A DNA stretch of 64,000 bases from Mesoterricola silvestris (GTDB taxonomy: Bacteria > Acidobacteriota > Holophagae > Holophagales > Holophagaceae), in contig NZ_AP027080.1 of assembly GCF_030295405.1 (NCBI RefSeq), positions 3,456,001-3,520,000 of the forward strand. The letters run 5' to 3'. The notes beneath the pieces were generated by a model. That model saw only the letters and a list, made by a program, of their open reading frames with translations, ran no database searches and was not told the DNA's origin. Both the position numbers and the translations under genes were made by a program. Every line of letters begins with the position of its first letter. Within the stretch, counting starts at the first letter, position 1. This document shows positions 51,371 to 64,000 of this stretch, one piece after another.

Positions 51371-53215
51371 ATGAATATCTCCCGTTCCTTCCGGTCCGCA
51401 TTACGTTTCCTGGGCCTGGCGGCCCTCGGCGCGCTCGTCGCCTGCGGCGGCTCCGGCGCCGGATCCAAACCCGCGGCCGTGACGGGCACCGGCAGCCTGA
51501 ACCTCGCGGTCACCGATGCCCCCTCCGACGCCTGGCAGCAGGTCTCCGTGGTGCTCAAGACCGCCAGCCTGCGCAACCAGGCCGACCAGTCCTGGACCCA
51601 GGTGTGGGCCGCGGATCCGGCCAACCCCGCCTCGGGCGTGGTGAACCTGGTGGATCTGGCCAGCGTGGCCGAACTGCTGGGCAAGGTCCCCGTGGCCGCG
51701 GGCACCTATGACCGGCTCCAGCTCACCATCGACACCACCCCCGCCTCCATGACCCTGGTGGACGACAGCGGCGCGACCATCCCCGCCGCCGACATCACCG
51801 TCATCGATCCCTCCGGCAAGGGCCAGATCAACGTCGTCATCGATCCCTCCCTGCAGGTGGCCGCGGGCGCCACCGCGAGCCTCCAGGCGGACTTCGACCT
51901 GGCCCACCCCCTCTCCATCGTCCAGGAGACCGTGGGCGGCGTGCAGAAGGTCGTCCTGAACCTCCAGGTGCGCCACAAGGCCCTGCCCACCCGGATCCAG
52001 GACCTGCAGTTCGCCCGGAAACTGGGCAAGGTGACCGCCGCCACCACCACCGGCTTCACCCTCACCGACGCCCGGGGCGCCACCTTCACCTACGGCGTGG
52101 ACGCCAACACCCTCTACATGGACGCCGACGCCAAGGCCACTGGCACCCTGGCCGGGCTCACCGTGAACGCCTACGCCCTGGTGGCCTCCAACCTCAATGC
52201 CGACGGAAGCCTCTACGCCCGGCGCGTGTGGTACGCCGCGGACGCGGCCACCTTGCCGGCGCGCACCCCCGAGGGCCTCGTGCGCCGGGTCAACGCCGCC
52301 GCCGGCACCTTCACGGTCTTCTCCAAGGCCATCGCCGCGTCCACCATGCGGGAGCGCTGGGGAGGCCAGACCGTGAAGGTGGACGCCAACACCGTCTGGA
52401 CCTTCCACACCACGGTCCCCATGGGCCAGGGCACCGGCCCCCTCGCCGACATCTGGCGCGGCGTCCGGGTCGATGTGCAGCTGGATGCCGCCGGCACCAC
52501 CGCCACCGCGGTCAATGTCAACAATGCGCATGACGAAGGCTACATCACCTCCGTATCCGCCACCGGCCTCACCTTCGGCTGGCCCGGGCGCACCCAGATG
52601 CCCATGGCCATGGGCGTCCGTTTCGGCCCCGACGATGAGAGCGGACGGAACTGGCCCTACTACCAGAATCCCGCCGACGCCGCCCACGCCTTCAGCTGGT
52701 GGTACTTCGGCCTGCCCTCCAGCGCCTCCACCGTGGTCAAGGACCTGCAGGACACCGCCGCCGCGGCCACCGGCGCCAACCTTCCGGTCATGGGGTACGC
52801 CAACCTCTACTGGGACACCGTTTCCGGCGGCTGGCAGGCCTACCAGCTGGTGCTGGCCCCCAACGCCCTGCCCGTGGCCACCGTCACCCGGGCCTACACG
52901 GACGGTCCCGCCGCGGGATCCGGCACGGTGGGCGTCACCTTCCGCACGCCCTTCGCGGCGGCCACCACCAACCCCCTGACCGTGACCCTCGACTACGCGG
53001 GGGATCTCCAGACCGTGGTGGAGGCCCTCACCTGGAACAGTTCCACGCGCCTCCTCACCTTCCAGGCGCCGGTGGACCACGCCCAGTGGGCCGCGCTCCT
53101 GGTGCCCCCCGCGGCCCCGGCCCTGGGCGCCACCCGCATCTGGGTCCGCCCCGTGAAGAACGGCGCCGCCTTCGACTGGCACGCCTACAACGTCGAGGTG
53201 TTCACCTCCAACTGA
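51371..53215 (+). CDS. DUF4382/DUF5666-type lipoprotein
   Basis: 614 residues from the ATG at 51371 (GGAG upstream). Lipoprotein signal with lipobox LVAC (Cys about 24), then a short Gly/Ser linker. N-terminal DUF4382 (TGTGSLNLAVTDAPSDAWQQ) at about 38-190; a DUF5666-like run of beta domains follows (KVTAATTTGFTLTD, LVRRVNAAAGTFTVF). Thr/Ala-rich, probably on the cell surface or in the periplasm. Functions of both domains are unknown. It overlaps the convergent LDH-like gene by 14 bp. Confidence 0.85.
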   Translation: MNISRSFRSALRFLGLAALGALVACGGSGAGSKPAAVTGTGSLNLAVTDAPSDAWQQVSVVLKTASLRNQADQSWTQVWAADPANPASGVVNLVDLASVAELLGKVPVAAGTYDRLQLTIDTTPASMTLVDDSGATIPAADITVIDPSGKGQINVVIDPSLQVAAGATASLQADFDLAHPLSIVQETVGGVQKVVLNLQVRHKALPTRIQDLQFARKLGKVTAATTTGFTLTDARGATFTYGVDANTLYMDADAKATGTLAGLTVNAYALVASNLNADGSLYARRVWYAADAATLPARTPEGLVRRVNAAAGTFTVFSKAIAASTMRERWGGQTVKVDANTVWTFHTTVPMGQGTGPLADIWRGVRVDVQLDAAGTTATAVNVNNAHDEGYITSVSATGLTFGWPGRTQMPMAMGVRFGPDDESGRNWPYYQNPADAAHAFSWWYFGLPSSASTVVKDLQDTAAAATGANLPVMGYANLYWDTVSGGWQAYQLVLAPNALPVATVTRAYTDGPAAGSGTVGVTFRTPFAAATTNPLTVTLDYAGDLQTVVEALTWNSSTRLLTFQAPVDHAQWAALLVPPAAPALGATRIWVRPVKNGAAFDWHAYNVEVFTSN

Positions 53216-54416
53216 GGCCCAGCCGCGCCATGCGGTCCTGAAGCAGCAGGTGGAGCTCCTCCACCTGCCGCTTCACCTCCGGCGCGAGCCGCCGCCGCGT
53301 GGGCCCCAGGCCCCAGCGGAGCCGGCAGGGGGAACCGAAGTAGACCCCGTCCACGAAGCTGCTGGCCAGCACCTCCCGCCCCGCCAGGAGGCGGGGCAGC
53401 GTGAGCACGATGGAGGAGAGGGCGGGCCCGATGTAGGGCAGGAAGCCCAGGTCCCGCACCCGGTAGTTGCCGGTGCGCGCCGCACGGGTCATGGCCTCGC
53501 ACAGGGCGGGGTCGGGCCCCGCGGGGTCGTCGTAGACCAGCACTTCCGTGGAGTGGGGCCCGTAGGGCACCCCCCGCCGCGCCACGCGCTCCCCCTGCCC
53601 AGCCGCCTCCGCCGCGGCCATGGCCCGGCCCCACATGACCCCCAGGGCCAGGCCCCCCACCCGTTCCGGGGCGAGGCCCGTGCCCAGCCATGCGCCTTCC
53701 GGGGCGTTGCTGTCGTGGAAGGCGGTCTGGGCCAGGACCTCCACCGGATCGGACACCATGAGGAAGAGCCCCGCGAACCCTTCGGCGTTGGCGGCCTCCA
53801 GGGCCCCCTTCAGGCATTCCCGGTTGGGCCCGAACTGGGTGAGGCGCACCTCGCCCTCCGTCCCCAGGGGCGGCACCGCGCTGGCCGCCGCGAAGAGGAA
53901 GGCGTCGCAGCGCCGCATCATCTCCCCCAGCCCCGCCGCCTCCACCTGGGGCAGGCGGGACCCCGCCCTCCACCGGGCCACGGACCCCAGCTCCTGCACC
54001 ATGCGCTCGAGATTGCCCCCGTCGCAGTCGTGGATCAGCAGGGTGCCGATGCCGCTGCCCGCGCAGGCCGCCAGCGCCGACGCCGCGAGCCCCCCCACCC
54101 GCCCCAGCCCCGAGATCCCCACCGTGAAGCTCCGGCCCCGGGCCGGCTCCGCCATCCTCCGGAGATACCTGGGAACCCCCGGCGCATCCCGGAGGTACGT
54201 CCAGTCCTTCCCACCCCCCTCCCAGAGCACCGCCACCCCCCCGCCCGGAGCCACCCGCCCCCGCGCGATCCAGGGCTCCGCGCGCGGATCCCCGTCCACC
54301 GGCGCCAGGACGATCTCCGCCCCCCCCGAGGACCGCTTGCGCACCCCCCACCCCAGGCGTTCCGCCATGACCGGATCCCCCGCCAGCGCCGCGCGCCCAT
54401 CCCCGAAGAGCCTCAT
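53202..54416 (-). CDS. Lactate/malate dehydrogenase-like NAD-binding protein
   Basis: 404 residues from the ATG at 54416, preceded by GGGAG with good spacing; an ATG at 54461 is weaker. The first about 95 residues match nothing I know. Then a Rossmann core: VGISGLGRVGGLAASALA (about 99-116), LIHDCDGGNLERMVQELGS and FLMVSDPVEVLAQT, aligning with the LDH/MDH NAD domain (DPVDV-like). GPHSTEVLVYDD may hold the catalytic His, although GxHG is usual. A third of the usual active-site Arg residues cannot be placed, so substrate is unknown. Confidence 0.65.
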   Translation of the reverse strand: MRLFGDGRAALAGDPVMAERLGWGVRKRSSGGAEIVLAPVDGDPRAEPWIARGRVAPGGGVAVLWEGGGKDWTYLRDAPGVPRYLRRMAEPARGRSFTVGISGLGRVGGLAASALAACAGSGIGTLLIHDCDGGNLERMVQELGSVARWRAGSRLPQVEAAGLGEMMRRCDAFLFAAASAVPPLGTEGEVRLTQFGPNRECLKGALEAANAEGFAGLFLMVSDPVEVLAQTAFHDSNAPEGAWLGTGLAPERVGGLALGVMWGRAMAAAEAAGQGERVARRGVPYGPHSTEVLVYDDPAGPDPALCEAMTRAARTGNYRVRDLGFLPYIGPALSSIVLTLPRLLAGREVLASSFVDGVYFGSPCRLRWGLGPTRRRLAPEVKRQVEELHLLLQDRMARLGLSWR

Positions 54417-54545: not shown

Positions 54546-54800
54546 GTTCCTGTGGAGCGTTCCGACCCACCGGTGTTCCAACACCCGCCGCGACCCAACG
54601 GTAGCGTGAGCAGCATGGCTGCTGCTCACGCTGGCCGTTGTCCATTGGGGATCGGGAGAGGGGAACCGGGAACCGGGAACCGGGAACCGCCCACCCCCCA
54701 CGACTCCACCACCCTTGCCCGGATACGGCAGAGCGCTCGCAGGCATACTGCCTGCGAGCGCTCACGGTGGGTCGGCGCACCTGACAGGAACCCCGGTGTC
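54546..54800. repeat. Family A repeat element with two hairpins and a GGGAACC array
   Basis: Hairpins at 54603-54632 (12-bp stem AGCGTGAGCAGC, 6-base loop) and 54732-54762 (14-bp perfect stem AGCGCTCGCAGGCA, loop TAC) are flanked outwards by CGACCCAC/GTGGGTCG and GTTCCTG/CAGGAAC segments shared with the 62 kb element. Between them is a tandem array, four copies of GGGAACC at 54661-54688. No gene in 54417-54872. The element separates two minus-strand genes rather than a convergent pair. Confidence 0.75.
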
Positions 54801-54872: not shown

Positions 54873-56246
54873 CTACACGATGCCCTGGTCGATCATGGAG
54901 TTGGCCACCTTGATGAACCCCCCGATGTTCGCCCCCAGCACGTAGTTTCCCGGATCGCCGTACTCGTTTGCGGTGTCTACGCAGGTTTTGTGGATGCGCT
55001 TCATGATGGTGTGGAGGCGCATGTCCACCTCCTCCGTGCCCCAGCTGGAGAAGCTGGCGTTCTGGGCCATCTCCAGGCCGGAGGTGGCCACGCCGCCGGC
55101 GTTGGCGGCCTTGCCGGGGCCGTAGAGGATCTTGTTCCGGAGGAAGACCTCCACGGCGTCAGGGGTGCTGGGCATGTTGGCGCCTTCGGAGACCACGAAG
55201 CAGCCGTGGTCCACGAGCATCTGGGCCTCTTCCTTGTTCACCTCGTTCTGGGTGGCGCTGGGGAAGGCCACGTCGCACTTCACGAACCAGGGGCGCATGC
55301 CCTCGAAGTACTCGCACTTGAACTTGTCGGCGTATTCCTGGATGCGGCCGCGGCGGTTGTTCTTGAGGTCCAGCACGTAGGCCAGCTTCTCGGCGTCGAT
55401 GCCGTTCTTGTCCACGATGGTGCCGTTGCTGTCGGAAAGGGTGATGACCTTGCCGCCGAAGTGGTTCACCTTCTGGACGGTGTACTGGGCCACGTTGCCC
55501 GAGCCCGAGACGGCGCAGGTCTTGCCCTTGAGGCTGTCGCCGCGGGTGTTGAGCATCTCCTCGGCGAAGTAGGTGGCGCCGTAACCCGTGGCTTCGGGCC
55601 GGATCAGGGAGCCGCCCCAGGCCAGGCCCTTGCCGGTGAGCACGCCCTCCCAGGAGTGGGTGAGCTTCTTGAACTCGCCGAAGAGGTAGCCGATCTCGCG
55701 CCCGCCCACGCCGATGTCGCCCGCGGGCACGTCGATGTTGGCGCCGATGTGGCGGTACAGCTCCTTCATGAACGCCTGGCAGAAGCGCATGACCTCCCAG
55801 TCCGACTTGCCCTTGGGATCGAAGTCCGACCCGCCCTTGGCGCCGCCCATGGGCACCGTCGTTAGGCTGTTCTTGAGGACCTGCTCGAAGCCCAGGAACT
55901 TCAGGATGCCCAGGTTCACCGACGGATGCAGACGCAGCCCTCCCTTGTAGGGCCCGATGGCGTTGTTGAACTCCACCCGGTAGGCCTTGTTCACGTGGAT
56001 CTCGCCCTTGTCGTCCTGCCAGGTGACCCGGAACTGGATGATGCGGTCGGGCTCGGTGATGCGCTCCAGGATCCGGTGGCTGAGGTACTCGGGGTGGCGC
56101 TCCAGGCAGGGCACGAGGGTTTCCACGACCTCCTTCACCGCCTGGTGGAATTCGTTCTCGCCCGGATTCTTGGCGATGAGCCGGTCGAAGAACATCTGGA
56201 CGTACTGGCTGACACTGGAGACGGGGAGGGCGAGGGTGAAGGCCAT
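54873..56246 (-). CDS. gdhA: Glutamate dehydrogenase (NADP-type)
   Basis: 457 residues. Reversible amination of 2-oxoglutarate to glutamate. PYKGGLRLHPSVN, VPMGGAKGG (catalytic Lys), DVPAGDIGVGGREIG and SGSGNVAQY (NADP turn, Ser-rich) mark the hexameric GdhA type. Full length. AGGAGT precedes the ATG. A good sigma-70 promoter overlapped by an inverted repeat lies about 160 nt upstream, so its expression is probably controlled. Confidence 0.96.
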   Translation of the reverse strand: MAFTLALPVSSVSQYVQMFFDRLIAKNPGENEFHQAVKEVVETLVPCLERHPEYLSHRILERITEPDRIIQFRVTWQDDKGEIHVNKAYRVEFNNAIGPYKGGLRLHPSVNLGILKFLGFEQVLKNSLTTVPMGGAKGGSDFDPKGKSDWEVMRFCQAFMKELYRHIGANIDVPAGDIGVGGREIGYLFGEFKKLTHSWEGVLTGKGLAWGGSLIRPEATGYGATYFAEEMLNTRGDSLKGKTCAVSGSGNVAQYTVQKVNHFGGKVITLSDSNGTIVDKNGIDAEKLAYVLDLKNNRRGRIQEYADKFKCEYFEGMRPWFVKCDVAFPSATQNEVNKEEAQMLVDHGCFVVSEGANMPSTPDAVEVFLRNKILYGPGKAANAGGVATSGLEMAQNASFSSWGTEEVDMRLHTIMKRIHKTCVDTANEYGDPGNYVLGANIGGFIKVANSMIDQGIV

Positions 56247-56675: not shown

Positions 56676-59600
56676 TCAGCGCTTTCCCCACCCTGCTCGG
56701 TGGTCCTTGTGGGCATCCGGCAGAAGCCGGGCCAGGGCTTCCAGGTCCTGGGCGATGAATTCGCTGGGGGCGCAGTCCCGGGGCGGCACGAAGCCCCGGG
56801 GGAAGGGCGGGCACCGGGGATGGCGCACCACGGCGGCCAGGTCCGCCAGGCTCAGGATGCGGCCTTCGTGGGCCCGGAAGGCGTCCTCCAGCACCTGGAA
56901 GAGGAGGGCGGACTGCTCCAGGGCCAGGCGGGAGAAGTCCAGGGCCTCCTCGGATCCCAGGCCCAGGGGATGGGGGTCGTGGTAGGGGAGGCAGTCGTTC
57001 AGGCTGGGCGTGAGGGACAGCCCCATGGAGCGGCGGTCCCGGATGGTCCAGCCCCCCACGAAGGGGATCACGGCGCTCTCCCGCACCACCCCGCGCCAGT
57101 GGGGCACCACCAGCCCGGTGCGGTGGGGCAGGCCGGCCATGTGCAGGGCGGCGTTCACGGAGGCGCTGGTGGCGCCCACGAAGATCTCCCGCAGGCGGAT
57201 CTTCACCTTCCGGCAGGCCTCCTGGATCCGCACCACCTGGTCCGCGCCGTCCAGGAAGGGGACCAGCAGGATCGCGTTGCGGCCCAGTTCGCGGGCGGTG
57301 GTCAGCTGGCGCTCGAGGCTGGGGCTGCCGAAGGAGGGATCCACCCCCGCCTCGTAGCCCTGGGCCGTGAGGCAGCGCTCCAGGTCCAGGGAGAGGGTCG
57401 GGATATCGCCGATGGTGTCCCGGGAGAACTGGCGGCCCAGGCCCAGGGCCACCCAGCCCGGGCCCTCCCCGTCCAGGCGCTCCTGGGTCCAGGCCGAAAG
57501 CTGGCGCTTGATCTCCTTTTCGTGGATGTGCAGGAGCCCGCTGCCCGGCACGCGGTCCGCGAAGAACCCCGCCAGGGCCCGGCGCAGCTGGAGGATGACC
57601 GCCTCCACCGGTGCCTCCCCCAGGTAGGGGTGCTGGAGGAGCTGTTCGAGGTCGTGGATCATCACCAGGGGGCGCGTGAGCTCGATGCCGGCCCAGCGCA
57701 GCCCGCTGGGGCCCGCGGCCCGGTCCCCCAGCCAGCCCGCGCCGTGGTGGCGCAGGAGCTTCCAGAGGCGCTCCCCGCCCTCCTCCGGCACGCCGAAAAG
57801 GGCGAACAACAGCCCCTCGCCGAACCACTGGCCGATGATGCGCGACAGGAGCTGGTCCAGGTCCACCAGGGAGGGATCCCGCGGGCCGCAGCCCACGGCT
57901 TCCACCAGGGCCCCCGATCCCATCAGCCTGCCCCCGGCCAGGCCCGCCAGGGATTCGTCCCCCAGGGCCACGGGCAGGGCCGCCGCGGTGCCCGCGACCC
58001 AGGTGATGGCGGCCAGGTCCTCCCCGGTCTCCCGGGACTGGAGGACCGCGGTGCGGGGCGCGTGCCCCGTCCAGCGCGTGGCCGCGCGCGCCGCCTCCAG
58101 CTGGGCCAGGGGCACCAGGCCCGGGGGGAGCCCCCTGCCCTCCCGGGAGAAGCGCAGCTTCCACTGGGACTCGAAGATCTCCTCCTTGCGGGCGGGATAG
58201 TTCACGTAGAGCCGGCGCTCCAGCAGGGTCCGGGCCACGAGGGGATCGCAGTAGGGATCCAGCTCCCCGCGGCGGTCGAAGGCCTCCCGCAGGGAGGTGC
58301 TGGACACCGCCCTCATGCGGGCCCCCACCTGGAAGACCTGCACCTCGGCCGTGAACTGCTCCAGCATGCCCTCCCAGCGCCGGGAATGGGCCTCCTCGCG
58401 GGTGATGACCAGGTGGGGCACCGCCCAGATGGGTGATGCGGGGTCGCGGTAGGCCGAGGCCCCCTCCAGGACGTCGGTGCCGACGATGAGGTGCAGCGGA
58501 CGCCGGCCCAGGTTGCGCTGGAGGCCCCGCAGGCTCTCCGGGTTGGCGATGTTCACGGGGGGATCGAAGGGGAAGATGTAGGCCCCGGGGATGGTGGACA
58601 GGGCCATCCAGGCCAGGTCGTCCCGCACGTAGCGGGGCTGGGCGTGCTTGCGCCAGGAGAAGTCGTCCACCTGGACGAACACCTCTTCGCAATGGGCCAG
58701 GGCCTTGTGCACCATCTCGCCGTGGGCGGAGGTGAAGGGATCGAAGGTCCCGGGCAGGAACCCCACCCGGGGGGCCCGGGGGAAGTCCACGGGGCAGGCG
58801 CCCAGGGCTTTGTCCAGGCTCGACAGGGCCTCGGCCGCCAGGAAGAAGCGGGCCCGCTCCCCGGGAAGGTGCCGCACCAGGGTCAGGGCCTTCTTGGTGA
58901 TGTGGGCGAGGATGGGCGCCAGACGGGAATCGGGCGACCCGCGCAGCCAGTCCAGGAGCAGGGCCAGGTGGGCGTACCCCTCGTGGGCCACGGAAACCCG
59001 GCTGTCGGCCAGGGCCCCCAGGACAAGCCCGGCGAGGCGCAGGATGCGGGCCATGGATTCCCTGGGCAGGGCCAGGATGAGCCAGGTGGAGGCCTGGATC
59101 AGGAGCTGCTGGAGGGCCTCCGCCCCCCGGCGCGCGTCCAGGGCCATGTCGTCCAGGAGCTCGTCCAGTTCCTGGGCCGGAAGGCTCGCCAGCAGGGGCC
59201 CCAGGAACCGGGGCAGGTACCGCGTCACCCCCTCCCCGTCCAGTTGCAGGGAGCGGAGCAGTTCGATGGCGAGGTCGTTGCGCTGGGTGTCCGTGAGGAG
59301 CGGGATCAGTCCCACCAGGCAGCGCCCCGCGTGGAAGCGGGTGCCCTCCACGCGGCTCACCTTCAGGAGGTTGGCCAGGTGGAAGCCCACCTCCCCCGCC
59401 AGGCGCGAATCGAAGTTCGAGCCCTCCACCAGGGAGACCAGGAAATCGCAGGCGACCTTCTTCTCCACCCACCCGGTCTGGCCCTTGAGGTTGCGAAGCA
59501 TCACTTCCCGGATGGGGCTGCGGCCCTTGGCGCGCAGCTCCCGGCACTGCTCGGCCAGGGCCGTGCGCCCCGAAAGCGCGGCGCAGCGCTCCAGCAGGAA

Positions 59601-61469
59601 GAGCTCGGCGACGGTGGCCGTGGGCCGGGCGTAGATGCCCAGGGTGTCCACGCAGCGGCCCACCTCCACCAGGAGTCCGGGCTCCTCCTGGCCGAAGCCC
59701 GCCAGCACGTGGAGCACCCGCCAGGCCATGAGCCTCACGTTGGCCACCTCGTGGAAGCCCCAGGTGCGGATGAGCTTGGGGAGCCGGAGCCTACCCGCCG
59801 CATCCATTTCCCGGGCCAGCAGCTCGAAGGACTCGCAGGTGTAGAGCGCCGACAGGGGGCGGCGGTCCCCGGCCCGGGCCAGGAGCTTCTCCACCACCAG
59901 CGGCAGGGCCTCCCCGGCCAGCTTCGCGCCGGCCCTGCTGAAGAAGCGGCGCAGGAAGATGGGGACGCCGTAGAGGATCTGCTCCTCCGGGGACATGTCC
60001 TCGGCGGCCTCCTTCGGGGCCAGGTCCAGGAGATCCAGGACCGCGGCCACGTGGGGCATCACCCAGGGGCGCTCCTCCAGCGCGGCCCCCACCGGCAGGT
60101 CCTTGCGCCACTCCACCTCCCCCAGGGCGAGAAGATCGGCCATGCGGCATGCGGCCTGGTACCGGATGTCGTCGTCGGGGTGGCTGAGCAGCTCCCGGAA
60201 GAAGTCCAGGGCCAGCGCCTTCTGCTCCTCGGAAAAGGCCGGGGCGTAGTCCCCCACGATCCCCACGTAGGTGCGCAGGTCCCGCCACCCGTTGAAGCTG
60301 CGGGCCTCCTCCAGGAGCCTGCGCAGGGCCGGCAGGTCCCGCAGGCGTTCCATGACGCCGATGTTGTGGGCCGTGGCCATGATCCGCGCCGTGGACGCCA
60401 CCTGGTTCCCCGCGGCCAGGGCCGCGGTGTCCGGACGCAGGTTCCCGGCCATGAGGGCGACGATGTCCAGGTTCGGCGGAAGCCAGGGCCGGCGGCGCCT
60501 GGACACCTCGAAGCCCGGGGGGTCCAGCTCCACCCCCAGGGCCAGGGCGTAGTCCTCCATGTCCCGGAGCTTGCGGTACACCGCCTCGTACCGGAGGCGC
60601 TTGTCCTGGTCCACGTCCTCGAGCTTGCCCAGGATGGTCTCGAAGGCCTCCTTGAGGGAGATGACCTCCATGCGCCATTTCCCGTCGGGGCCCTGGATGT
60701 CCTTCACCCGGAAATCGCAGTAGATGAGCACCTGGGTTTCGATGGGCAGGCGGATGAGTTCCAGGTCCCAGCAGGAATGGTTGGTGGCGATGTGGCCCAG
60801 GCCACCCAGGTCGCGGGAGGCGTAGTACTGGTGGGTGTAGTAGTAGTGGAGCCGGGGGATGCGCTTGGCCTCGTCGCCCACGCACCCGAACTTCCCCACG
60901 TCGTGTCCGATGGCCCCGCCGTGCAGGAGGGGCAGGTCCACGGGAATGGATTTCGCCAGCTGCCTCCCGACCCAGAGGGCCAGGCCCGTGACGCCCAGCA
61001 CGTGGTCCTGGATGGAGAAGCCCCGCCAGTACTGGGCCATGGCCATGGCCACCAGGAACCCCTCCTCCTCCAGGCGCCCCAGGAGCCGCCGGTACTGGTC
61101 CCCGGAGGGCCACGGGGCCTGTTCCGCCTCCGTGAGGGGCTGGAAGGGGAGCCGCGCGGAAAGGCTGCCCGGTGCCGGAAGGTGGAGCCGCGCCGCGTCG
61201 GCCAGGGGGAAGAAGGCCTCCGCCACCCCCAGCACCCGGCCCTCCCCCGTGCCGAAGCGCTGGGGATACAGCCGCCGGCGGGCCTCGGCCTGCATGGCCT
61301 CGCGCCATGCGTCCAGGGACCCGGGGACCTCCTCCCCGGCGATCTCCAGGGCCAGCCCCAGGGCCGCGTCCAGCGGCGCCCAGTCCCGGGCGAGGGACGC
61401 GGGAGCCACGGTCCACCCGTGGCGCAAGAGGACAGCATCGAACACCCGACCCCCCCAGCTTCTGATCAA
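56676..61469 (-). CDS. Giant HD phosphohydrolase - helical repeat - NadD/PPAT-like nucleotidyltransferase fusion
   Basis: 1597 residues from a TTG; a GTG at 61445 is an alternative. N-terminal HD domain at about 150-260, with FSIQDHVLG, GGAIGHDVGKFG (HD at 189-190) and HIATNHSCWDLE. The middle (about 330-890) is all-helical, HEAT-like. A nucleotidyltransferase domain at about 905-1080 shows GTFDPFTSAH (the T/H-x-G-H site, here TSAH), HLIVGTDVL and VSSTSLREA. The last about 500 residues (LFALFGVPEEGGERL, PTLSLDLERCL, PFLDGADQVVRIQEACRK) match nothing I know. NadD and the HD protein YqeK are neighbours or fused in some bacteria, but not with such repeats and tail. No signal peptide. Confidence 0.75.
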   Translation of the reverse strand: MIRSWGGRVFDAVLLRHGWTVAPASLARDWAPLDAALGLALEIAGEEVPGSLDAWREAMQAEARRRLYPQRFGTGEGRVLGVAEAFFPLADAARLHLPAPGSLSARLPFQPLTEAEQAPWPSGDQYRRLLGRLEEEGFLVAMAMAQYWRGFSIQDHVLGVTGLALWVGRQLAKSIPVDLPLLHGGAIGHDVGKFGCVGDEAKRIPRLHYYYTHQYYASRDLGGLGHIATNHSCWDLELIRLPIETQVLIYCDFRVKDIQGPDGKWRMEVISLKEAFETILGKLEDVDQDKRLRYEAVYRKLRDMEDYALALGVELDPPGFEVSRRRRPWLPPNLDIVALMAGNLRPDTAALAAGNQVASTARIMATAHNIGVMERLRDLPALRRLLEEARSFNGWRDLRTYVGIVGDYAPAFSEEQKALALDFFRELLSHPDDDIRYQAACRMADLLALGEVEWRKDLPVGAALEERPWVMPHVAAVLDLLDLAPKEAAEDMSPEEQILYGVPIFLRRFFSRAGAKLAGEALPLVVEKLLARAGDRRPLSALYTCESFELLAREMDAAGRLRLPKLIRTWGFHEVANVRLMAWRVLHVLAGFGQEEPGLLVEVGRCVDTLGIYARPTATVAELFLLERCAALSGRTALAEQCRELRAKGRSPIREVMLRNLKGQTGWVEKKVACDFLVSLVEGSNFDSRLAGEVGFHLANLLKVSRVEGTRFHAGRCLVGLIPLLTDTQRNDLAIELLRSLQLDGEGVTRYLPRFLGPLLASLPAQELDELLDDMALDARRGAEALQQLLIQASTWLILALPRESMARILRLAGLVLGALADSRVSVAHEGYAHLALLLDWLRGSPDSRLAPILAHITKKALTLVRHLPGERARFFLAAEALSSLDKALGACPVDFPRAPRVGFLPGTFDPFTSAHGEMVHKALAHCEEVFVQVDDFSWRKHAQPRYVRDDLAWMALSTIPGAYIFPFDPPVNIANPESLRGLQRNLGRRPLHLIVGTDVLEGASAYRDPASPIWAVPHLVITREEAHSRRWEGMLEQFTAEVQVFQVGARMRAVSSTSLREAFDRRGELDPYCDPLVARTLLERRLYVNYPARKEEIFESQWKLRFSREGRGLPPGLVPLAQLEAARAATRWTGHAPRTAVLQSRETGEDLAAITWVAGTAAALPVALGDESLAGLAGGRLMGSGALVEAVGCGPRDPSLVDLDQLLSRIIGQWFGEGLLFALFGVPEEGGERLWKLLRHHGAGWLGDRAAGPSGLRWAGIELTRPLVMIHDLEQLLQHPYLGEAPVEAVILQLRRALAGFFADRVPGSGLLHIHEKEIKRQLSAWTQERLDGEGPGWVALGLGRQFSRDTIGDIPTLSLDLERCLTAQGYEAGVDPSFGSPSLERQLTTARELGRNAILLVPFLDGADQVVRIQEACRKVKIRLREIFVGATSASVNAALHMAGLPHRTGLVVPHWRGVVRESAVIPFVGGWTIRDRRSMGLSLTPSLNDCLPYHDPHPLGLGSEEALDFSRLALEQSALLFQVLEDAFRAHEGRILSLADLAAVVRHPRCPPFPRGFVPPRDCAPSEFIAQDLEALARLLPDAHKDHRAGWGKR

Positions 61470-61627: not shown

Positions 61628-62137
61628 ATGGACGCCTTGGAAGCCCTCAACACCCGCCGCAGCATCCGCGCCTTCACGCCCAGGCCCGTGAGCCTGGACA
61701 TCGTGCGGGAGCTGATCCGCGCGGCCATGCATGCCCCCAGCGCCGGCAACGAGCAGCCCTGGCACTTCCTGATCATCACGGACCGGGAGATCCTCGACAA
61801 GATTCCCGACTTCCACCCCTACGCCGGCATGATCAGCGAATCCCCCGTCTCCGTCCTGGTCTGCGGCGACCCCCGCCAGGAGAAGCACCCCGGCATGTGG
61901 GTCCAGGACTGCGCCGCCGCCACCCAGAACCTCCTCCTGGCCGCCCACGCCAAGGGCCTGGGCGCCGTGTGGGTGGGCGTCCACCCCCGCGAGGACCGGA
62001 TAGAACCCCTGCGCAAGCTCATCGACCTGCCCGAGGTGGTGGTCCCCTTCGCCCTCATCCCCATCGGCCACCCCGCCGAATCCCCCGAATCCGAGGACCG
62101 CTACCGCCCCGAACTCATCCACCTGAACAAGTGGTAG
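61628..62137 (+). CDS. Nitroreductase-family flavoprotein
   Basis: 169 residues. FMN enzyme of the short NfsA/FRP-like group. LNTRRSIRAFTPRPVS near the start binds the FMN phosphate. HAPSAGNEQPWHFLI and the conserved GLGAVWVGVHP follow. Substrates may be nitroaromatics, quinones or flavins. Its own promoter must lie in the 158 bp after the giant fusion gene, which is divergent. It is followed by the repeat element whose first hairpin probably terminates it. Confidence 0.9.
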   Translation: MDALEALNTRRSIRAFTPRPVSLDIVRELIRAAMHAPSAGNEQPWHFLIITDREILDKIPDFHPYAGMISESPVSVLVCGDPRQEKHPGMWVQDCAAATQNLLLAAHAKGLGAVWVGVHPREDRIEPLRKLIDLPEVVVPFALIPIGHPAESPESEDRYRPELIHLNKW

Positions 62138-62154
62138 TACCTCCTCGAACCTCG

Positions 62155-62182
62155 AAAGGGCCGGCTTCGATGTCGGCCCTTT
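62155..62182 (+). terminator. Terminator hairpin of the nitroreductase gene
   Basis: Stem AAAGGGCCG/CGGCCCTTT, loop of 10 bases, followed by CGCGTTTGG. It lies 18 bp after the stop and is the left end of the composite repeat. Confidence 0.65.
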
Positions 62183-62568
62183 CGCGTTTGGGGCTTCCGG
62201 CCCTTCCGGGCTGTCCCTGCCGGGGGCTGCGCGGTTTGGGGTCCGGGTTCCTGGGGAAGGGGCCGACCCACAGGGGTTCCAACGATGGGCGCCTACCCAC
62301 CCTTAGCGCTCGCAGGCAAGCTGCGAGCGCGTAGCGCGCACGAGTTCCGGGATTGTGAACGTCGAAGTGGGGCTGGCCTCAGGACTTGGGAGCCCCACTC
62401 TCCCGAACCGCACTTCCAGATGGATCCAGGACACGCGCTCGCAGCTTGCCTGCGAGCGCGCAGGGTGGGTAGGCGCCCATTGTTGGAACTCCTGTGGGTC
62501 GGCCCCTTGCCCAGGAACCAGGACCCCAAACCGCGCAGCCCCCGGCAGGGGCTGAAGGCCAAAACGCG

Positions 62569-62596
62569 AAAGGGCCGGCATCGAAGCCGGCCCTTT
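62569..62596 (-). terminator. Terminator hairpin of the DHODH-like gene
   Basis: Perfect 11-bp stem AAAGGGCCGGC/GCCGGCCCTTT with loop ATCGAA. Read on the minus strand it follows the stop at 62613 and runs into CGCGTTTTGG. It is the mirror of the left-hand hairpin. Confidence 0.7.
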
Positions 62597-62612
62597 CCTC
62601 GGGTGGGTCCGC

Positions 62613-63605
62613 CTAGGCCTTCCAGCCCGCCAGGACGCGCATGTAGTTGGCGCGCTCGAAGGCCTGGGGGTTGGGGCACTTCATGAGGCTGAGGGAGCCC
62701 CGCATCTGCTCCAGGGATTCGTACTCGTGCTCTTCCATCCAGGCGGCGAGGCCGTCGCGGACTTCGGTTATCCGCTCGGGGCCGTGCTTGAGGGTGGCGG
62801 AGACCATCTGGATGCCCGTGGCGCCGGCCATGGTGGCCTTCACGGCGTCCTCGGCGGTGTGGACGCCGCCGGTGACGGCCATGGGCATGGAGATGTGGCT
62901 GTAGAGCAGGGCCAGCCACCGCAGGCGCATGCGCAGGGTGGCGCTGGAGGAGAGCTGCAGGGCGGGGACGACCTCCAGGTTCTCGATGTCCAGGTCGGGC
63001 TGGTAGAAGCGGTTGAAGAGCACCAGGGCGTCGGCGCCGGTGCCTTCCAGCACCTTGGCGAAGTGGGCCAGGCTGGAGAAGAAGGGGGAGAGCTTCACGG
63101 CCACGGGGATCTTCACGCTGCCCTTGACGGTGCGGACGATCTCGAGGGTGCGCTTTTCCACCATGTCGGCGGTCTCGAAGGGGTTGGTGGCCAGGTAGTA
63201 GATGTTGAGCTCCAGCGCGTCGGCGCCGGTCTGCTCCATCTTCCGGGCGTAGTCCAGCCACCCGGAGTTGGTGATGCCGTTGAGGGAGCCGATGACGGGG
63301 ACCTTCACGGCCTCCTTCACGCGCCGGAGCTGGTTCAGGTAGCTCTCGGGGCCCAGGGTCATCTCGTCGACGCTGGGGAAGTACGAGGTGGCTTCCGCGA
63401 AGGAGTTCGCGTGGCCGTCCAGGTCGTAGAGGGTGCCCGTCTCCTCCCGGGTGATCTGCTCCTCGAACAGCGAGGGCAGCGTGATCGCGGCGGCGCCCGC
63501 GTCCTCCAGCCTGCGCACGGCGTCCAGGTCCGCCCCCAGGGGGGAGGCGCCGGCCATGATGGGGTGATCCAGCTTCAAACCAAGGTAGGTGGTCTTCATG
63601 TTCAT
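62613..63605 (-). CDS. Dihydroorotate-dehydrogenase-like flavoprotein
   Basis: 330 residues from ATG 63605 (GCGAGG six bases upstream; a second ATG at 63599). TIM-barrel related to PyrD: LGLKLDHPIMAGASPLG, LEDAGAAAITLPSLFEEQ, VPVIGSLNGITNSGW and AVTGGVHTAEDA (FMN phosphate). The catalytic Ser/Cys region and length differ from true PyrD. Proteins of this type are usually encoded beside pyruvate:ferredoxin oxidoreductase, as here. A role in dihydropyrimidine or related redox with ferredoxin is possible but unproven. Confidence 0.85.
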   Translation of the reverse strand: MNMKTTYLGLKLDHPIMAGASPLGADLDAVRRLEDAGAAAITLPSLFEEQITREETGTLYDLDGHANSFAEATSYFPSVDEMTLGPESYLNQLRRVKEAVKVPVIGSLNGITNSGWLDYARKMEQTGADALELNIYYLATNPFETADMVEKRTLEIVRTVKGSVKIPVAVKLSPFFSSLAHFAKVLEGTGADALVLFNRFYQPDLDIENLEVVPALQLSSSATLRMRLRWLALLYSHISMPMAVTGGVHTAEDAVKATMAGATGIQMVSATLKHGPERITEVRDGLAAWMEEHEYESLEQMRGSLSLMKCPNPQAFERANYMRVLAGWKA

Positions 63606-63640
63606 GCCGAACCTCGCGGGAAAGAGTGCCTTAGATTAAA

Positions 63641-63700
63641 GCACCGGCCGTACGGGGCCGTCACCGGAAATCCGGGTGACGGCCGCGGTACGGCCGGTGC
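63641..63700 (-). terminator. Very long hairpin between nifJ and the DHODH-like gene
   Basis: Arms GCACCGGCCGTAC/GTACGGCCGGTGC and an inner GGCCGTCACC/GGTGACGGCC fold to about 25 bp of stem with a loop of about six bases. It lies 9 bp after the nifJ stop (63710) and is followed on the minus strand by TTTAAT. Strong terminator, or a REP-like unit. Confidence 0.75.
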
Positions 63701-63709
63701 GTCAGCGTC

Positions 63710-64000
63710 CTACTCGACCACCGTCTTGACCGGCATGGTCAGGTTGGCGAGGTTTTCGTAGGTGGCGTAGCGGTTCGTGACTTCGCGCTGGGCCATGGCG
63801 AGCAGGTGCTTGAAGTGCTCGGGGTTCTGCTGCTGGACCATGCGGAAGCGGGTCTCGTTGAGGATGTAGGTGGCCAGATCCACCTTGGGGGCGGGGCTGT
63901 CCATCTGCAGCGGGCCCTGGCCCTCGGCCACGCGCCGGGGGTCGAAGCGGAACAGCGGCCAGTGGCCGGAGTCCACGGCCAGCTTCTGCTGCTCGCAGCC
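63710..64000 (-). CDS. nifJ: Pyruvate:ferredoxin (flavodoxin) oxidoreductase, C-terminal end (partial)
   Basis: About 96 residues; the frame runs open past the window edge. SGHWPLFRFDPRRVAEGQGP and the following LQMDSPAPKVDLATYIL match the extreme C-terminal domain of single-chain PFOR, followed by the last helices (REVTNRYATYENLANL). The whole enzyme (about 1,170-1,200 residues) would convert pyruvate to acetyl-CoA, CO2 and reduced ferredoxin. Only the tail is seen, so cofactor motifs cannot be checked. Confidence 0.88.
   Translation of the reverse strand, partial: GCEQQKLAVDSGHWPLFRFDPRRVAEGQGPLQMDSPAPKVDLATYILNETRFRMVQQQNPEHFKHLLAMAQREVTNRYATYENLANLTMPVKTVVE

Follow-up and report, generated by a model that had tools for sequence, protein, structure and literature searches.

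A giant NadD-type and HD-domain protein with a near-obligate LDH/MDH-like partner: a possible NAD-type nucleotide system in Acidobacteriota and Clostridia

Introduction

GlnD combines a nucleotidyltransferase and an HD hydrolase in one chain and belongs to a nitrogen-metabolism context. NadD-type transferases, members of the HIGH superfamily, are known to act on small-molecule phosphates. In the mycoplasma NadD–YqeK fusion JCVISYN3A_0380, the HD part breaks down incorrect NaAD analogues made by a loose NadD (PMC9426524). The HD residue set H...HD...H...H...D is given as diagnostic of a dinuclear site (PMC8177086).

We analyzed a window of Mesoterricola silvestris DNA, by which we mean the whole stretch of 64,000 nucleotides, and focused on a giant protein of approximately 1,600 amino acids encoded on its minus strand. 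Its closest precedent is the mycoplasma fusion: both place a NadD-type adenylyltransferase and an HD domain with dinuclear-type ligands in one chain (PMC9426524). The giant differs in its size, in having a HEAT solenoid and a phosphoribosyltransferase (PRTase)-like C terminus, in the position of the HD domain, which is N-terminal and by profile is not YqeK, and in that its genomes retain a separate nadD and carry a near-obligate LDH-like partner. We regard it as a variant of the nucleotidyltransferase–HD fusions, set apart from the NadD–YqeK family. Like GlnD, it has a nucleotidyltransferase and an HD domain in a single chain and a nitrogen-metabolism context, but its nucleotidyltransferase fold is different and ACT domains were not found in it. 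The literature that we searched, which left most subscription papers outside, contained no description of the family; the individual domains are known, but neither the five-part architecture nor the partner nor the distribution seems to have been described there.

Results

The Giant Gene Is a Single Intact Frame

The minus-strand frame at 56676–61469 is intact and counts 1,597 codons from its first TTG. As same-genus relatives begin at a GTG corresponding to that at 61445 (MFDAVL...), we take the latter as the likely start and number residues from it; the HD pair that the first-pass annotation had placed at residues 189–190, in TTG numbering, is indeed present as H181/D182. The gene and its parts, in protein order, are as follows:

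56676–61445, minus strand: giant protein gene with GTG start, ~1,589 aa (1,597 aa from the TTG at 61469)
60456–61112, minus strand: HD domain region, residues ~112–330, with ligands H148, H181, D182, H200, H223, and D244
58776–60392, minus strand: HEAT/ARM-type solenoid, residues ~352–890, from the AF2 model and fold search
58197–58775, minus strand: predicted NadD/NMNAT-type nucleotidyltransferase, residues ~891–1083, with PGTFDPFTSAH at 898–908, K933, GxD at 989–991, and SSTxxR at 1048–1053
57621–58193, minus strand: GNAT-like alpha/beta segment, residues ~1085–1275, from the order of secondary structures in the AF2 model only
56679–57638, minus strand: PRTase-like C-terminal domain, residues ~1270–1589, with a PRPP motif degenerate in the window lineage

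The 1,597-residue frame had been read as one fused gene, and this holds: homologues of ~1,590–1,670 aa are found in a single frame in many independent assemblies, complete genomes among them. We reject assembly fusion on these grounds and consider the chance of an assembly or sequencing artefact joining separate genes to be negligible. Upstream, judging by eye from the translations, lie a nitroreductase-like gene (plus strand, 61628–62137), a dihydroorotate-dehydrogenase-like gene (minus strand, 62613–63605), and, within 61628–64000, the apparent C terminus of a pyruvate:ferredoxin oxidoreductase.

The Family Spans a Deep Split between Acidobacteriota and Clostridia

Same-genus genomes carry the giant at 92, 89, and 74% identity, and one complete genome of the genus (G001) is without it. 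Three other Acidobacteriota have it at 51–54% identity, two in full length and one running to a contig end, and Acetoanaerobium noterae has a homologue that aligns along most of its length at 27% identity. Scanning genome contigs, we obtained 579 candidates, 507 of which are relatives; the 80 that were kept come from Acidobacteriota, Clostridia, two near-identical Atribacterota metagenome-assembled genomes (MAGs), one Planctomycetota MAG, and one "Calditrichales" genome. The full-length form is found in other genomes of the genus, in other Acidobacteriota, in many Clostridia, and in the two Atribacterota MAGs. The approximately 80 loci fetched are mostly single frames of 1,570–1,670 aa, some cut by contig ends. 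The occurrence is patchy, with the giant present in 4 of 396 sampled Acidobacteriota genomes and in 8 of 398 of the clostridial phylum, where by our own reading of the matches these are the giant and not a short NadD/CoaD match. Cultured carriers include Clostridium carboxidivorans P7, Caloramator, and Tissierella.

The tree has two deep clades, one of Acidobacteriota with the Planctomycetota MAG and the other of Clostridia with the rest. The sequence labeled Calditrichales MX18-03 (L035) falls inside Clostridia, a possible mislabel or transfer. The single match in PLSDB was to an A. noterae record (NZ_CP154629.1) of 2.63 Mb, labeled plasmid pTPELB2, and we reject plasmid spread; the record includes genes expected of a chromosome, NAD kinase among them, and is likely a mislabeled chromosome. 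A role in anti-phage defence was likewise rejected, with PADLOC giving no match.

Domain Models and Conserved Residues

AlphaFold models were confident for both the N half (pLDDT 91.9, pTM 0.90) and the C half (pLDDT 89.9, pTM 0.90); one row, from the plasmid record, was left out of the input. Together with profiles, they give the order N-terminal helical region, HD domain, HEAT solenoid, NadD/NMNAT domain, segment of GNAT-like topology, and PRTase-like C terminus. For the window protein, the sole Pfam match was a weak one to cytidylyltransferase (E 7e-4), and NCBIfam gave weak NadD and CoaD matches. In fold searches with the full-length protein, the NadD and HEAT parts took up the match lists. 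The model and fold search confirm the HEAT-like middle proposed earlier, which also has a profile match to the designed repeat protein 4rzp (E 6.5e-6). Residue invariance was counted by alignment column over the 80 sequences.

The nucleotidyltransferase domain is predicted, from both model and motifs, to be of NadD/NMNAT type. The best fold match was 4rpi (Z 19.6, rmsd 2.3 over 183 residues), and NadD/NMNAT structures scored Z of ~17–19.6 versus ~14 for CoaD; the best profile match was the Plasmodium NaMNAT (E 2.4e-8). The signatures GTFDPFTSAH and VSSTSLREA are present as first reported and belong to the motifs GxFxPxx(H/T)xxH and (I/V)SSTxxR; G899, D902, F904, H908, K933, G989, D991, S1048, S1049, and R1053 are invariant in 80 of 80 sequences. 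The domain thus has in common with NadD/NMNAT enzymes the fold and the GxFDPxxxxH, GxD, and SSTxxR motifs. It differs in being embedded in a giant protein without a housekeeping role, in scoring below the curated NadD equivalog cut-off of 112 bits in TIGR00482 (23 bits for the window protein and 45 for that of Acetoanaerobium), and in having T or S at position 905, the first His of bacterial NadD. The last difference is no argument against NMNAT chemistry, since the Plasmodium enzyme, with the motif GSFDPITYAH, has T at the equivalent position.

In the HD domain, H181, D182, H200, H223, and D244 are invariant in 80 of 80 sequences, and H148 is kept in 79, the remaining sequence having a gap there; judged by these residues, the domain carries the six-residue dinuclear signature. 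Pfam HD matched 26 of 33 family members (best E 1.5e-5), and the HD region gave only weak matches in a PDB profile search (1xx7, E 0.046; HD-GYP 4mcw, E 0.083). The domain had been linked to YqeK, the Ap4A hydrolase, and does share with it the metal-ligand pattern. YqeK identity is nevertheless not supported: the YqeK model TIGR00488 was not among the NCBIfam matches of the giant, a profile–profile comparison (hhalign) gave a probability of 5%, and the giant has invariant motifs of its own, LHYYYT and HSxWD, that set it apart from YqeK.

The C-terminal 500 residues, described at first as having no known match, are partly accounted for. Residues ~1085–1275 resemble GNAT in topology alone: we found no Pfam or PDB profile match and no sequence trace of an acetyl-CoA site, and the assignment is unproven. 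In Clostridia, the last 320 residues look like a type I phosphoribosyltransferase. PF00156 matched 11 of the 33 members, with a best E of 1e-4, and stayed below the gathering score in the member shown; a profile match to HGPRT was weak (E 0.035). In clostridial members, the acidic pair of the PRPP loop is D in 67 of 67 and then D/N in 67 of 67, with a Gly. The motif is absent (A/V-P) in 13 of 13 sequences of the acidobacterial type, the window protein included, and PRTase chemistry is therefore not essential family-wide.

A chain with an HD hydrolase domain, helical repeats, and a NadD-like nucleotidyltransferase is thus what models and profiles support, and neither active site has lost its signature residues.

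An LDH/MDH-like Partner Is Coinherited with the Giant

Two further genes of the window accompany the giant:

54873–56246, minus strand: glutamate dehydrogenase (gdh), 457 aa, located between giant and partner in the window genus
53202–54416, minus strand: LDH/MDH-like partner LdhL, ~404 aa, with GxGxxG and an acidic NAD-binding residue kept

Neighboring genes in high-GC loci were called by tblastn and GC3-aware choice of open reading frames. The partner gene lies directly downstream (+1) of the giant in nearly all loci with room for it, and a 4-base overlap between the two genes is frequent. Where a locus offered more than 500 bases, the partner was seen in all cases but two Peptococcaceae MAGs (L077 and L078); it is shifted by ~5 kb in L040, and Holophagaceae have glutamate dehydrogenase in between. 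Three same-genus loci end before the partner, and it was found in those genomes. Full-score partner matches occurred in 4 of 4 giant-bearing genomes versus 0 of 56 others in a sample that included same-genus genomes, and in 4 of 4 versus 0 of 392 in the Acidobacteriota sample. The giant and the LDH/MDH-like protein are nearly obligate companions and are inherited as a pair. In Clostridia, an FMN-reductase-like protein (PF03358, E 1e-15) forms a third gene, at +2 in 48 loci.

The partner keeps the Rossmann motif GxGxVG and then an acidic residue, which indicate NAD binding, and shares with lactate/malate dehydrogenases the His in GPHG and the Arg. It is distinguished from them by an extra N-terminal region and by VSDPVD for the usual VSNPVD, and it scores 22–29 bits against the curated L-LDH cut-off of 303. 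Aligned with LDH, it is without the Asp of the Asp–His relay at its usual place, making its own chemistry uncertain.

Glutamate and NAD(P) Genes Recur in the Neighborhood

In an unbiased clustering of neighbors, a serine dehydratase, an Nfn/GltD-like protein, and glutamate dehydrogenase ranked high after the operon partners, the serine dehydratase being largely limited to one lineage. In a screen of ~1.03 Mb of flanking sequence, 12 loci had gdh no more than 8 kb from the giant, versus none for five control genes and one for each of two others. The arrangements vary: Holophagaceae, another acidobacterium, and L035 have gdh downstream on the same strand, six Clostridia have it upstream in divergent orientation, and in L072 it lies elsewhere. 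A glutamate-synthase-like gene (gltB) adjoins the giant in three loci (L016, L027, and L030), the first two of which are copies of one sequence. The NAD(P) genes nnrD and nadK are near five and four loci, respectively; both Atribacterota loci have a PncA-like nicotinamidase after ldhL, and one (L055) a bifunctional NAD(P)HX repair enzyme upstream of the giant. The genome G001, without giant and partner, is also without a window-type gdh and has only paralogues of 33%. These associations were chosen post hoc among partly related loci and are supporting evidence only. Between gdh and ldhL, at 54603–54632 and 54731–54763, the window has two perfect palindromic hairpins with arms of 13 and 15 nt, one of which has near copies at 62304–62317 and 62448–62461, suggesting REP-like intergenic repeats.

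A nucleotidyltransferase and an HD domain near gdh (12 loci) and gltB (3 loci) could be read as a GlnD/GlnE-like system in which the former domain adds and the latter removes a nucleotidyl group on a protein, controlling glutamate enzymes or LdhL. We hold this to be very improbable: gdh is absent near most loci, we saw no sign of protein substrates, and transferases of the NadD type are known to act on small-molecule phosphates. The recurrence of gdh may also be taken, with the large HEAT solenoid, the degeneration of the PRTase in one clade, and the GNAT segment lacking a trace of its acetyl-CoA site, to indicate a regulator, with domains that sense NAD or a nucleotide and a solenoid that binds and controls the partner or glutamate dehydrogenase. 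This is unlikely in our view, as invariance of the HD and nucleotidyltransferase catalytic residues across a very deep split argues for retained chemistry.

Giant-Bearing Genomes Have a Separate nadD

In the genome of the window, a separate nadD is flanked by obgE and an rsfS-like gene, and a coaD is present as well. The look for a second nadD thus succeeded, and its place in the obgE–nadD–rsfS cluster means that the giant is not the cell's NadD; we reject it as the housekeeping NadD or CoaD. A separate nadD-type match was found in 10 of 10 other giant-bearing genomes, nine of them above the curated cut-off, leaving the need for a second nadD-type enzyme unexplained. yqeK is present in eight giant-bearing clostridial genomes, and none was shown in the window's own genome.

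The giant might still be an extra NaMN/NMN adenylyltransferase with proofreading, functionally like the mycoplasma fusion with a scaffold added. It has the same enzyme pair in one chain with signature residues intact, and the mycoplasma protein both makes and destroys aberrant NaAD analogues (PMC9426524). We consider this rather unlikely, given the separate nadD in its own and ten other genomes, the yqeK kept in Clostridia, and an HD domain that is not YqeK; it also leaves the near-obligate partner unaccounted for.

Discussion

The near-constant presence of an NAD-binding LDH-like partner, together with the domain set, leads us to conclude that the giant probably handles an NAD-like molecule, and that it probably makes, checks, or repairs one. 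The first-pass annotation had imagined synthesis and breakdown of a dinucleotide or NAD precursor combined on a scaffold. With both domains in one chain and their active-site residues intact, such a combination is plausible; the HD domain is, however, not recognizably YqeK and the giant is not the cell's NadD. The trio of domains in that picture stands, and what it lacked is the PRTase-like C terminus, the near-obligate partner, and the gdh context.

Our preferred reading, which we hold tentatively and at somewhat less than an even chance, puts the giant at the center of a dedicated NAD-type synthesis-and-hydrolysis system, for proofreading or repair, that serves the LDH-like partner. In this scheme, where we infer all of the catalysis, what the substrate is, and which way the cycle runs, two genes would form an NAD-type nucleotide system apart from housekeeping NAD synthesis. 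The NadD-like domain would adenylylate a substrate resembling a pyridine mononucleotide, and the dinuclear-type HD domain would hydrolyze wrong, damaged, or surplus (di)nucleotides, both being held by the HEAT scaffold. The PRTase-like C terminus may supply the phosphoribosyl substrate in Clostridia and only bind in Acidobacteriota, where the motif is lost. The product, or the cofactor once checked, would pass to the NAD-binding LDH-like partner, with the system operating in anaerobes near glutamate and NAD(P) redox enzymes.

A bolder version appears quite improbable to us: a complete pathway contained within one protein, in which the PRTase and nucleotidyltransferase build, and the HD domain edits or destroys, a noncanonical pyridine-type dinucleotide for the LDH-like partner and the flavoprotein, in anaerobes metabolizing glutamate and amino acids.

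The family keeps seemingly intact NadD-type and HD sites on one scaffold across the deep split between Clostridia and Acidobacteriota, and its occurrence in cultured strains makes it directly testable. If the dedicated NAD-type system is real, the giant would represent a new branch of the synthesis, proofreading, or repair of NAD or an NAD analogue, and an orphan LDH-like protein would gain a function.
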